Source: Natronolimnohabitans innermongolicus JCM 12255 (GTDB taxonomy: Archaea > Halobacteriota > Halobacteria > Halobacteriales > Natrialbaceae). Taken from it: a stretch of DNA of 64,000 nt. Both the position numbers and the translations under genes were made by a program. Positions 10,525 to 14,970 of the stretch are shown here, in pieces (the first letter of the stretch is position 1; the number at the start of each line of letters is the position of its first letter). Under the pieces are notes generated by a model. That model saw nothing but the letters and a program-made list of their open reading frames with translations, ran no database searches and was not told where the DNA came from. Location: NCBI RefSeq assembly GCF_000337215.1, contig NZ_AOHZ01000068.1:1-64000 (forward strand). The letters are read 5' to 3'.

Positions 10525-10626
10525 GGGCGAAGCGAGGGACCGACTCGAGAAAAGGTCGTCGTCCGTCGCTGCGGCGATATCGAGTCGTCGGGAGTCGACC
10601 GGGTTCGCAGCCGACAGAATCCTTAT

Positions 10627-10648
10627 TTGAATGGCTGTACAATCGAAC
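10627..10648. promoter_or_regulatory. candidate ArsR operator upstream of arsR
   Basis: The site consists of TTGAAT, a 4-base spacer, then GTACAATCGAAC, ending 4 bases before the arsR start. It matches the reverse complement of the ridA-upstream site (TTGAAC, 4-base spacer, GTTCAATTGAAC) at 15 of 18 half-site bases with identical spacing. A TATA-like ccttattt sits just upstream (10621-10628), so binding would cover the start of a leaderless transcript. Confidence 0.6.
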
Positions 10649-10652
10649 TACA

Positions 10653-11042
10653 ATGGCCCAACCGAACGCGCGACTCCGCCGGTATCTCGAGGACGAACTC
10701 GACGAGTGTCGGAACGAAGACCTGCAGGAACGGCTCGACGAACTCGACGAACTCGGTGCGGTGTTCGACGAGGAGGCCGTGGCGAGCGACGTACGGGCGC
10801 TGTCGGCGCTCGGGAACGAGACGCGGTACAGACTCGTCAGGCTGTTAGTTGAAGCCGACAGCGAACTCTGCGTCTGTGAGATTACGCCGCTCGTCGACGT
10901 CAGCGACAGCGCCGTCAGCCACGCGCTCTCGACGCTCGCGGATGCGGGTCTCGTGACCAAACGCAAGGACGGCCGGTGGCGAAAGTATCGGGCAACGACC
11001 CGTGCGAGCGCGCTCTGTACCGTTCTCGACGGCTCGCGGTGA
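10653..11042 (+). CDS. arsR: ArsR-family metalloid-responsive repressor
   Basis: The 129-residue winged-helix protein has an N-terminal acidic helix (1-45) and a domain starting VRALSALGNETRYRLVRLL. The family's metal site in helix 3 is present as SELCVCE (C-x-C), and the recognition helix follows as VSDSAVSHALSTLADAGLV with a wing KRKDGRWRKYRAT. In ArsR homologues the CxC motif binds As(III)/Sb(III) and releases DNA. Context supports this, because ACR3 and ArsC genes follow. It should repress itself and the ridA-acr3 transcript through the repeated half-sites in front of both genes. The start is an ATG directly downstream of the operator-like site. Confidence 0.93.
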   Translation: MAQPNARLRRYLEDELDECRNEDLQERLDELDELGAVFDEEAVASDVRALSALGNETRYRLVRLLVEADSELCVCEITPLVDVSDSAVSHALSTLADAGLVTKRKDGRWRKYRATTRASALCTVLDGSR

Positions 11043-11133
11043 GCCCGAACTCGAGACCCCACGACTCTCGCGTCCGGTTTCGGTAGCGGTACTGCGCGCT
11101 CGATCCGAGGGACGGACTTATGTATGAGGAGTC

Positions 11134-11155
11134 GTTCAATTGAACTATGGTTCAA
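11134..11155. promoter_or_regulatory. candidate ArsR operator overlapping the ridA start
   Basis: The perfect palindrome GTTCAATTGAAC (11134-11145) is followed after 4 bases (TATG) by a third half-site GTTCAA (11150-11155), so the site spans the ATG at 11147. A TATA-like ttatgta (11118-11124) sits about 23-29 nt upstream of the start. The half-sites and spacing mirror those in front of arsR. Confidence 0.65.
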
Positions 11156-11602
11156 TCAGGCGCAGAGCGTGACGACGGAGCGACGGAAGCCGGCGAGACC
11201 GAGTCGATCTCACCACCCCGCGCCAGCACCGCGAGCAAGCGGCAACGAGAGGGGACGGGAACCGTCGGCGCGTTCGGCAAGCGAACGGGCAGCTCCGATC
11301 TCGTCTTTCTCGAGGGAATCCTCCCCGAAACCGACGATCGTGTATTGAGCGATCTCTCAACCGAGCAGCAAACGACGGTGTGTCTCGACAGGCTCGAGTC
11401 GATCCTCTCGTCGCGAGCCGTCCCCCTCGAGAACGTGATGAAAGTCGAGGTCCAGTTGACCGATATCGACGACCGGGCGGCCGTCGACGGCGTGTACCGG
11501 ACCCGATTCGACGGTGCGTATCCACCGCGAACGACCGTCGGCGTCTGCGCGTTGCCCGGCGGGGCCGCCGTCCAACTCGATGTCGTCGCTGTAGACGAGT
11601 AA
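11147..11602 (+). CDS. RidA/YjgF-family protein in the arsenic operon
   Basis: The protein has 151 residues. After a 45-residue polar extension, the RidA fold runs from about residue 46 (SSDLVFLEGILPET) through VPLENVMKVEVQLTDI and PPRTTVGVCALPGGAAVQLD, the C-terminal signature. The Arg in PRTTV corresponds to the substrate-binding Arg of RidA. RidA enzymes deaminate reactive imine/enamine intermediates; other members of the fold have unknown roles. It is the first gene behind the second operator and 11 bases upstream of the small ORF preceding ACR3, so it is likely co-expressed with the efflux pump. A specific arsenic role is inference. Confidence 0.85.
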   Translation: MVQSGAERDDGATEAGETESISPPRASTASKRQREGTGTVGAFGKRTGSSDLVFLEGILPETDDRVLSDLSTEQQTTVCLDRLESILSSRAVPLENVMKVEVQLTDIDDRAAVDGVYRTRFDGAYPPRTTVGVCALPGGAAVQLDVVAVDE

Positions 11603-11613
11603 CGGAGGCCCAG

Positions 11614-11697
11614 ATGACGGAACACTCACTCGAAGATCGTCGACTCGAGCGTTCGACGAACGGTTTTCTCCCGGCGATGGTGACGTGCGATGAGTAA
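11614..11697 (+). CDS. 27-residue small ORF coupled to the ACR3 gene
   Basis: ATG at 11614 is preceded by a good Shine-Dalgarno, GGAGG (11604-11608), with a 5-base spacer, which is unusual among mostly leaderless neighbours. The frame encodes 27 residues (starting MTEHSLEDRR, ending MVTCDE) with one Cys near the end. Its stop overlaps the ACR3 start as ATGAGTAA. The arrangement suggests a small protein or a leader cistron coupling RidA translation to ACR3. No family is recognised. It could be a decayed gene remnant. Confidence 0.45.
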   Translation: MTEHSLEDRRLERSTNGFLPAMVTCDE

Positions 11698-12871
11698 CCG
11701 CGAGCACGACCACGGTTCCGACTGTGCGTGTCCGGACTGCGGCGATCCGCGGTCGATGGACTTTCTCGATAAGTACCTGACCGTCTGGATCTTCCTCGCG
11801 ATGGGGGTAGGTGTCGGCCTGGGGTACGTCGCTCCGGGAGTCGTCGACCCGATTCAGGAGTACTATCTCGTCGAGATCGGCCTCATCGCGATGATGTACC
11901 CGCCGCTGGCGAAGGTCAACTACGGGCAACTGCCGCGGGTGTTCAGCGCCTGGCGCGTGCTCAGTCTGAGCCTGATCCAGAACTGGCTGATCGGGCCGAC
12001 GCTGATGTTCGCGCTCGCGGTGGTCTTCTTCAGTGGCCTCGTGCCGCCGTTTCCGGCACACCCCGAGTACTTCCTCGGACTGATCTTCATCGGGATGGCC
12101 CGGTGTATCGCGATGGTGCTCGTCTGGAACGACCTCGCCGACGGCTCCTCCGAGTACGCCGCCGGACTCGTCGCGTTCAACAGCGTCTTCCAGATCGTTA
12201 CCTACGGCGTGTACGTCTGGTTCTTCGCGCTGTTCCTGCCGCCGTTGCTGGGTATGGACGCACTGGTTGCCGGCATCGGCACGTTCGACATCACGATCGA
12301 ACAGGTGTTCTGGGCGATCGCGATCTTCCTCGGGATTCCGTTCGCGGGCGGCATCCTCACCCGCTTCGGCGGCGTTCGAGCGAAGGGAGAAGCGTGGTAC
12401 GAAGAGCGGTTCGTCCCGACGATCAGCCCAGTGACGCTGCTCGCGTTGCTGTTCACCGTGGTCGTGATGTTCGCCACGCAGGGCGACGCTATCATCGCTC
12501 AACCGACCGACGTACTCTGGATCGCCGTCCCGCTGACGATCTACTTCGTCGTCATGTTCCTCGTGAGCTTCGCGATGGGACGCGGGATCGGGGCCGACTA
12601 CTCGACGACCACGGCGATCGGTTTCACCGCCGCCTCGAACAACTTCGAACTCGCCATCGCCGTCGCCGTCGCCGTCTTCGGCGTCGGCTCCGGCGTCGCG
12701 TTCGCGACCGTCGTCGGTCCGCTCATCGAGGTGCCCGTCCTGCTCGCGCTGGTCAACGTGGCGGTCTACTTCCAGCGCCGGTTCGACTGGGGCGGCTACG
12801 AGACCGGCCGACTCGAGAGTACGAAGCCAGCGAACAACGACGTGGCGCCCTCGAAAACGGACGACGATTGA
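11690..12871 (+). CDS. arsB: ACR3-family arsenite efflux transporter
   Basis: The 393-residue membrane protein has about ten hydrophobic segments and ACR3 signatures: KYLTVWIFLAMGVGVGLGY at the first helix, MMYPPLAKVNY, FIGMARCIAMVLVWNDLA with the essential Cys of ACR3 pumps, and GFTAASNNFELAIAVAVAVFG. It should export As(OH)3/arsenite across the plasma membrane using the ion gradient. An N-terminal cytoplasmic extension contains EHDHGSDCACPDCGD, a His/Cys-rich element that could bind metalloid. Start ATG at 11690 overlaps the small ORF. It is followed 1 base later by a tandem Usp gene. The symbol arsB is used here in the haloarchaeal sense (acr3 class). Confidence 0.93.
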   Translation: MSNREHDHGSDCACPDCGDPRSMDFLDKYLTVWIFLAMGVGVGLGYVAPGVVDPIQEYYLVEIGLIAMMYPPLAKVNYGQLPRVFSAWRVLSLSLIQNWLIGPTLMFALAVVFFSGLVPPFPAHPEYFLGLIFIGMARCIAMVLVWNDLADGSSEYAAGLVAFNSVFQIVTYGVYVWFFALFLPPLLGMDALVAGIGTFDITIEQVFWAIAIFLGIPFAGGILTRFGGVRAKGEAWYEERFVPTISPVTLLALLFTVVVMFATQGDAIIAQPTDVLWIAVPLTIYFVVMFLVSFAMGRGIGADYSTTTAIGFTAASNNFELAIAVAVAVFGVGSGVAFATVVGPLIEVPVLLALVNVAVYFQRRFDWGGYETGRLESTKPANNDVAPSKTDDD

Positions 12872-13803: not shown

Positions 13804-14220
13804 CTACCGCCCCGACTCGAGTTCGTCGAACAGGTCGCGCACTCGAGTCTCGATCTCGTCGCGGATCTCGCGGACCGTCTCGCGGCCCGTTCCGTGCGGA
13901 TCCTCGAGGCCCCAGTCGCGGTTCTCGCCGCTCCAGGTCGCCGGGCAGACCCCCTCGGCTGAACAGCCCATCGTCACCACGTAGTCACAGTCCCGAAGCT
14001 CCTCGGGAGTGATCTCTCGAGGCGTCCGCTCGCTGAGATCGATCTCACGCTCAGCCATGACATCGATGACTTCCTCGTGGACGCGCTCGGCCGGTTGCGT
14101 CCCGCCGGTTACGACAGTGATCTCGCCCTCGAGAGTCCGGTTCACGCGCTCGCGCTCGGCGAAGGCGGCGGCCATCTGACTTCTCCCGGCGTTCTGGACG
14201 CAGACGAACGCGACGTTCAT
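13804..14220 (-). CDS. arsC: arsenate reductase ArsC (LMW-phosphatase type)
   Basis: The 138-residue protein starts at the ATG at 14220 (MNVAFVCVQNAGRSQMA), where the catalytic P-loop C-x5-R is CVQNAGR at residues 7-13. The thioredoxin-linked ArsC family also needs two further cysteines, and they are present as MGCSAEGVC. The general-acid loop is WGLEDPHG. It should reduce arsenate to arsenite for export by the neighbouring ACR3. It lies convergent with the operon and divergent from a second homologue. It could still act as a tyrosine phosphatase, but the cysteine triad favours arsenate reduction. Confidence 0.9.
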   Translation of the reverse strand: MNVAFVCVQNAGRSQMAAAFAERERVNRTLEGEITVVTGGTQPAERVHEEVIDVMAEREIDLSERTPREITPEELRDCDYVVTMGCSAEGVCPATWSGENRDWGLEDPHGTGRETVREIRDEIETRVRDLFDELESGR

Positions 14221-14487
14221 GGTACGAGGGAGGGATGCTCGGTCCAAACGCATTTCGGTAGGACTCGAGTCGTTTTTCCGCCTGTCCTGAGAGAGCCGCT
14301 CGACAGGTTGCTTGGATAGATCACGGTACGTACTGCTACAGCTCGGCATATAGGACTCATATAAACGGTATTTTCGGATCGGCGTAAACGCCCCGTCAGA
14401 TGATACAAAACAACCGTAGATCGGATCGACCGGAACGATCGGAGCCGATTACGGGCGACCTGCTCGCAGGGGCTCGAGGTGGCGGCG

Positions 14488-14970
14488 ATGACTGAGACCG
14501 ACGACGCCGTCCACGTGGGCTTCGTCTGCGTCCAGAACGCCGGCCGCAGCCAGATGGCGACCGCCTTTGCCGAACGTGAACGCGACCGTCGCGGCTGGGA
14601 CGATCGGCTCGAGATCCATACCGGCGGCACCCACCCCGCCGACGAGGTCCATCCGGTCGTCGCCGACGCAATGGACGAGGAAGGGATCGACCTCTCGGGT
14701 CGAACGCCCCGGGAGATCCCCGACGATGAACTGGCCCGCTGCGACGTCGTCGCGACGATGGGCTGTTCGACGCTCGAGCTCGAGGCCGACGGCGTCGACG
14801 TCCGCGACTGGGCCCTCGACGACCCCCACGGCGAGGATCTCGAGCGCGTTTGCGAGATTCGGTCGACGGTCGAGGACCGCGTGCGGGCGCTGTTCGACGA
14901 ACTCGAGTCGCAAGGTGTGGCCGACGAACCGTCGCTCGAGACCGGCCGAACGGGAAGCGACGACGCGTGA
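14488..14970 (+). CDS. LMW protein-tyrosine-phosphatase / ArsC-like paralogue
   Basis: The protein has 160 residues, with ATG at 14488 preferred over the GTG at 14479. It is a close paralogue of the minus-strand ArsC, with the same P-loop CVQNAGRSQM near residue 14, TGGTHPADEVHP, LSGRTPREI and DWALDDPHG. It keeps MGCS but lacks the second resolving Cys seen in the paralogue (MGCSTLELEADGVDVRDW has only one). Either it uses a different thiol relay or it works as a phosphatase. It is divergent from arsC across about 267 bases. Confidence 0.85.
   Translation: MTETDDAVHVGFVCVQNAGRSQMATAFAERERDRRGWDDRLEIHTGGTHPADEVHPVVADAMDEEGIDLSGRTPREIPDDELARCDVVATMGCSTLELEADGVDVRDWALDDPHGEDLERVCEIRSTVEDRVRALFDELESQGVADEPSLETGRTGSDDA

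Follow-up and report, generated by a model that had tools for sequence, protein, structure and literature searches.

In the ArsR/SmtB family of repressors, imperfect 12-2-12 inverted repeats usually occur near the start site, as one or two copies per regulated gene, copies within genes being also mentioned, and the repeat listed at alr7622/aztA reads TACAATTGAATA-GT-TGTTCAATTGTT (PMC8790569). For SmtB, sites consisting of either a full repeat or half of one have been described (PMC5658604), and the bacterial arsRBC/cadCA-type operators follow the consensus TAxAxTCAAATAxxTATTTGAxTxTA (PMC6555750). As regards the sensing of the metalloid, the types of As(III) site described include R773, AfArsR, and CgArsR (PMC11868830).

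Here, we analyzed a stretch of 64,000 nucleotides (hereafter the window) from a haloarchaeal genome of 4.59 Mb, in which an arsR gene is followed by ridA and acr3. Our observations suggest that arsR and ridA–acr3 very probably constitute an arsenite-resistance unit controlled by ArsR, which would act through sites at the two promoters and through a further site within ridA, and would let go of them in the presence of As(III). The features on which this reading is built are all on the forward strand and are given below in the order in which they occur.

10623..10630, + strand: TATA-like element TTATTTGA of arsR, which shares bases with the left operator arm; its core is near-invariant in close arsR promoters.
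10627..10642, + strand: putative arsR operator TTGAATGGCTGTACAA, TTGAA-TGGCTG-TACAA, a single 12-2-12-type site; TTGAR-N6-YNCAA is conserved across arsR promoters.
10643..10648, + strand: TCGAAC, proposed in a preliminary description of this DNA as an extra arsR half-site; not conserved.
10653..11042, + strand: arsR, encoding an ArsR/SmtB metalloregulator of 129 aa with invariant Cys19, Cys73, and Cys75.
11118..11125, + strand: TATA-like element of ridA, TTATGTAT.
11124..11139, + strand: putative ridA operator site 1, ATGAG-GAGTCG-TTCAA, which most ridA orthologs carry next to the TATA-like element.
11140..11155, + strand: putative ridA operator site 2, TTGAA-CTATGG-TTCAA, a perfect match that spans the start codon and abuts site 1.
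11147..11602, + strand: ridA, encoding a RidA/YjgF family protein of the ars-linked subfamily, 151 aa.
11345..11360, + strand: candidate intragenic operator site 3, TTGAGCGATCTCTCAA, TTGAG-CGATCT-CTCAA, a perfect match over ridA codons 67-72.
11690..12871, + strand: acr3, encoding an As(III) efflux permease (ACR3; TIGR00832, 377 bits).

The regulator encoded at 10653-11042 passes both PF01022 (HTH_5; 44.6 bits for a cut-off of 22) and NF033788 (metalloregulator ArsR/SmtB; 77.6 bits for a cut-off of 55), and the nearest relatives of its gene are mostly found in Natrialbaceae. All 73 haloarchaeal homologs share its Cys19, Cys73, and Cys75; the Cys-x-Cys-x-x-Cys of ArsR type 1 (R773) is absent from the ELCVC box, where ELCVCEITP offers a CxC only. 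This combination of an N-terminal cysteine with a CxC presumably recalls CadC, and CadC figures among the solved relatives in the sequence matches of ArsR. As(III) would accordingly be predicted to bind through Cys73-x-Cys75 and the invariant N-terminal Cys19, upon which all sites would be released.

Downstream of the regulator, ridA and acr3 are probably cotranscribed. A WTGAR-N6-YTCAA scan gave acr3 no operator of its own within the window, and inspection of the sequence upstream of it gave no evident TATA-like element, so that repression of ridA would repress the pump too. The RidA proteins of ars clusters resemble a separate subfamily, whose best matches (E < ~1e-28) adjoin arsR where checked, generic RidA proteins scoring only ~1e-23 and weaker, and in the open-access literature that we searched, we came across no account of RidA as a member of ars operons. 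Two divergent arsenate-reductase-like genes (LMWPc; arsC-like) also adjoin the cluster, at 13804-14349 on the minus strand and 14479-14970 on the plus strand; regulation of these neighbors by the same motif was rejected, no match to an ArsR-type site being found at either.

The preliminary description had read the promoters of arsR and ridA as sharing an unusual operator, composed of a dimer site plus a half-site and arranged in reversed order at the two genes. The strings that it quoted are exactly where it placed them, namely GTTCAATTGAAC (11134-11145), 4 bases, and GTTCAA (11150-11155) at ridA, and TTGAAT (10627-10632), 4 bases, and GTACAATCGAAC (10637-10648) at arsR, whose ATG is at 10653. 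The reverse-complement match that it reported between them, 15 of 18 positions with identical spacing, is correct as well. When the 22-bp pattern was searched with up to 3 mismatches, the window held 3 matches versus 0 in 100 dinucleotide shuffles, and the same three were the only ones in the 4.59-Mb genome, which excludes chance. The third of these matches (11124-11145) falls on the ridA site itself, and reveals a fourth half-site, ATGAG (11124-11128), that had been missed. What had been described at ridA as three half-sites is a pair of full tandem sites with four half-sites, in which GTTCAATTGAAC corresponds to the right arm of site 1 and the left arm of site 2, touching each other, and in which GTTCAA forms codons 2-3 of RidA (ATG at 11147). 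Taken alone with 2 mismatches, the 12-bp palindrome GTTCAATTGAAC occurs at 51 places in the genome and is too loose to use. At arsR, there is one 16-bp copy, fused to the TATA-like element and with TACAA as its right arm. The reversed order arises because this single site had been matched to ridA site 2; when the TATA-like elements are superimposed, the arsR and ridA promoters have the same orientation. The TATA-like elements of both genes start 29-30 bases before the start codons, positions that fit leaderless mRNAs, and the arsR site as well as ridA sites 1 and 2 sit near the promoter, between TATA-like element and start codon, which is not the case of site 3. The inverted-repeat core is of the 12-2-12 kind (TTGAA-N6-TTCAA type).

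When upstream regions from haloarchaeal loci were compared (76 for arsR, 33 for ridA), the conserved unit emerged as a 16-bp inverted repeat, TTGAR-N6-YTCAA, and the distance from TTGA/TGA to TCAA/TCA in these promoters forms one dominant sharp peak at 8. In close relatives of arsR, a near-invariant TTATTTGA is followed by A/G, 6 bases, and NNCAA, such that the TATA-like element runs directly into the left arm of the repeat; many more distant relatives display TTAATTGAG-N6-CTCAA at the same place. In ridA promoters, TGAR-N6-YTCA is found just past the TATA-like element, site 2 being present in a subset of the orthologs. The geometry that is conserved is thus the published ArsR/SmtB 12-2-12 core and not an unusual dimer-plus-half-site layout: the arrangement is canonical for the family, set on an archaeal promoter.

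That these sites define an ArsR regulon, as had also been proposed, is by contrast well supported, for the element recurs at the arsR, ridA, and acr3 promoters of many haloarchaea and is rare at control promoters: TGAR-N7-[TA]CAA is found in 37 of 76 arsR and 17 of 33 ridA promoters versus 2 of 287 control upstream regions, the controls being taken from the remaining genes of these loci. Across differing gene orders, the site accompanies arsR, ridA, and acr3: it precedes acr3 where this gene directly follows arsR (loci L021 and L060) and is also present at the divergent ridA of Natrinema-type clusters. One of the two control promoters with the motif, in Halorubrum yunnanense (L090), carries TTATAATTGTATGAGAGTTTGTTCAAATG and looks like a genuine further target. 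In another locus (L128, 1501-1828), a small ORF of 96 aa located after arsR has its own TATA-like element and TGAATAAAGCCTCAATTGA, and is a possible further target of ArsR.

Within the genome, the composite pattern TTAT-N(0-4)-TGAR-N6-YNCAA occurs at three places, which are arsR, ridA, and the inside of unrelated overlapping ORFs (contig C35). Perfect copies of TTGAR-N6-YTCAA number four, two of which are in ridA; of the others, one falls within an ORF and one follows an ORF end and has no adjacent TATA-like element. In the window, the three places that match WTGAR-N6-YTCAA are all at ridA, versus 0.10 matches expected. Across 61 genomes of the family, the composite pattern is no commoner than its reversed control, so the argument rests on the location of the matches rather than on their number, and match counts across these genomes were dropped as proof.

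In a scan from -420 to +700 around ridA, no strong matches other than sites 1, 2, and 3 recurred widely, and the coding sequences of 76 arsR and 49 acr3 genes contained no full-score match. All 21 of the close ars-linked ridA orthologs retain site 3, differing from WTGAR-N6-YTCAA at no more than one position; more distant ridA copies are without it. Among 72 conserved columns with a synonymous choice, Ser71 is the sole codon-fixed one, being TCA, a minority codon, in all 21 sequences. CTC, the preferred codon, is never used for Leu67, and the third position of codon 70 is invariably T or C, including where this codon specifies Arg, Leu, or Pro. These 21 orthologs are related rather than independent, and it is the other serine columns (Ser27, Ser30, Ser50, and Ser135, which vary in codon) that serve as an internal control. 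An internal promoter at site 3 was rejected, since inspection of the orthologs revealed no conserved TATA-like element upstream of it. In Natronorubrum sulfidifaciens (L050 and L022), a strongly diverged RidA copy, in which the conserved PPRT motif has become PSGT, retains site 3 as a perfect match (TTGAATGGTCGTTCAA), as though the enzyme had been outlasted by the DNA site.

Several other readings of these sites can be weighed against the one that we favor. The layout of the preliminary description, in which ArsR would read a dimer site, GTTCAATTGAAC, together with a half-site at a distance of 4 bp, reversed at arsR relative to ridA, can draw on the 15/18 match, real and beyond chance, and on the recurrence of the tripartite string TTCAATTGAA..ATGGTTCAA in several ridA orthologs. 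Two abutting 16-bp sites, however, fully explain this tripartite string; next to the TATA-like element, many ridA promoters show TGAR-N6-YTCA alone, and the arsR promoters of close relatives lack the GTTCAATTGAAC palindrome. Allowing one mismatch, the extra half-site TCGAAC was recovered in no more than 2 of the 24 other close orthologs, and a minority of the more distant ones display an extra half-site. On the strength of this conservation in arsR and ridA promoters, the three-half-site operator was rejected, and we regard it as highly improbable. We consider it very unlikely that the repeat within ridA does not serve as an operator and owes its conservation to the RidA peptide or an RNA hairpin. 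A conserved peptide, L/M-N/S-x-x-S-I, does overlie site 3 and could drive part of the conservation of its left arm, and an inverted repeat could in principle form a stem; yet Ser71 is TCA throughout when other conserved serines vary. Moreover, covariation between the arms is absent (Fisher p = 0.67 for the R/Y pair; the first pair is often mismatched), and the predicted RNA leaves them unpaired, with a stability not above that of shuffles (z = 0.05). The hairpin was rejected on these grounds, and site 3 is better viewed as a DNA site.

What selection acts on at site 3 is the DNA, and for the sequence that is also found in the promoters; read most simply, site 3 would be a further ArsR operator, the third one of the unit leading into acr3, and this is its most likely role. 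Finally, the binder could be another ArsR/SmtB-family paralog or some other regulator, the ArsR encoded at 10653 not being the main one. Haloarchaea have many winged-helix paralogs, and similar 12-2-12 sites are recognized by more than one family member, as exemplified by AztR and AzuR (PMC8790569). We nevertheless consider this unlikely, because a site lies at the own promoter of arsR and stays with this gene across many genera and gene orders, from which we infer that ArsR is the binder.

Sites located at the TATA-like element or at the start region allow archaeal repressors to block the recruitment of TBP/TFB or of the polymerase. On the reading that ArsR occupies the sites described here, its dimers would bind the 16-bp TTGAR-N6-YTCAA cores when arsenite is lacking. 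The single site fused to the TATA-like element of arsR would then give rise to simple autorepression, the two abutting ridA sites, which span the interval from TATA-like element to start codon, would block promoter assembly or initiation, and site 3, some ~205 to 220 bp downstream, would add a second level of repression to the pump unit. For site 3, the likeliest mode of action would be a roadblock in the path of RNA polymerase, and a loop joining it to the promoter sites comes second. Center-to-center distances from site 3 are 221 bp to site 1 and 205 bp to site 2, and the distances between site 1 and site 3 in orthologs are 221, 215, 213, 212, 188, and 185 bp; as these do not all share one helical phase, they give no clear support to a tight loop. 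Overall, we find it reasonably probable that ArsR controls the pump unit through an operator in the ridA coding sequence in addition to two tandem promoter operators, by roadblock or loop, and that selection at the DNA level has frozen a minority serine codon in the 21 close orthologs, which belong to several genera.

These sites provide a precise and testable candidate code for ArsR operators in haloarchaea, in which the regulator has one site and the pump unit several, together with a clean case of a putative regulatory site within an archaeal gene that is visible in codon usage. Since the intragenic site shows at the level of codons, repression by roadblock or looping can be tested by synonymous mutations, and the way in which a bacterial-type repressor may act, by either of these means, on the eukaryote-like transcription machinery of archaea becomes testable too.

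With regard to described systems, the closest likeness is with the ArsR/SmtB 12-2-12 operators (smt, zia, nmtA, and azt): the core TTGAA-N6-TTCAA equals the listed azt repeat, and it is likewise found near or over the transcription start. Unlike in these systems, the promoters are here archaeal, with the left arm of the arsR site fused to the TATA-like element and a start that is probably leaderless; the two ridA cores abut without a spacer, and a third copy is located in coding sequence, where it is conserved at the codon level. The arsRBC/cadCA-type operators are also inverted repeats for the same repressor family (PMC6555750), but their arms are TCAA-N8-TTGA, when those found here are TTGA-N8-TCAA. 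The arrangement of Cys19 with Cys73-x-Cys75 differs from the R773, AfArsR, and CgArsR types (PMC11868830). Lastly, like arsADRC and arsR2M of Halobacterium NRC-1 (PMC3600143), the locus represents haloarchaeal arsenite resistance with an ArsR repressor, from which it differs by its gene content, arsR-ridA-acr3, that is to say by an ACR3 pump accompanied by a RidA-family protein.
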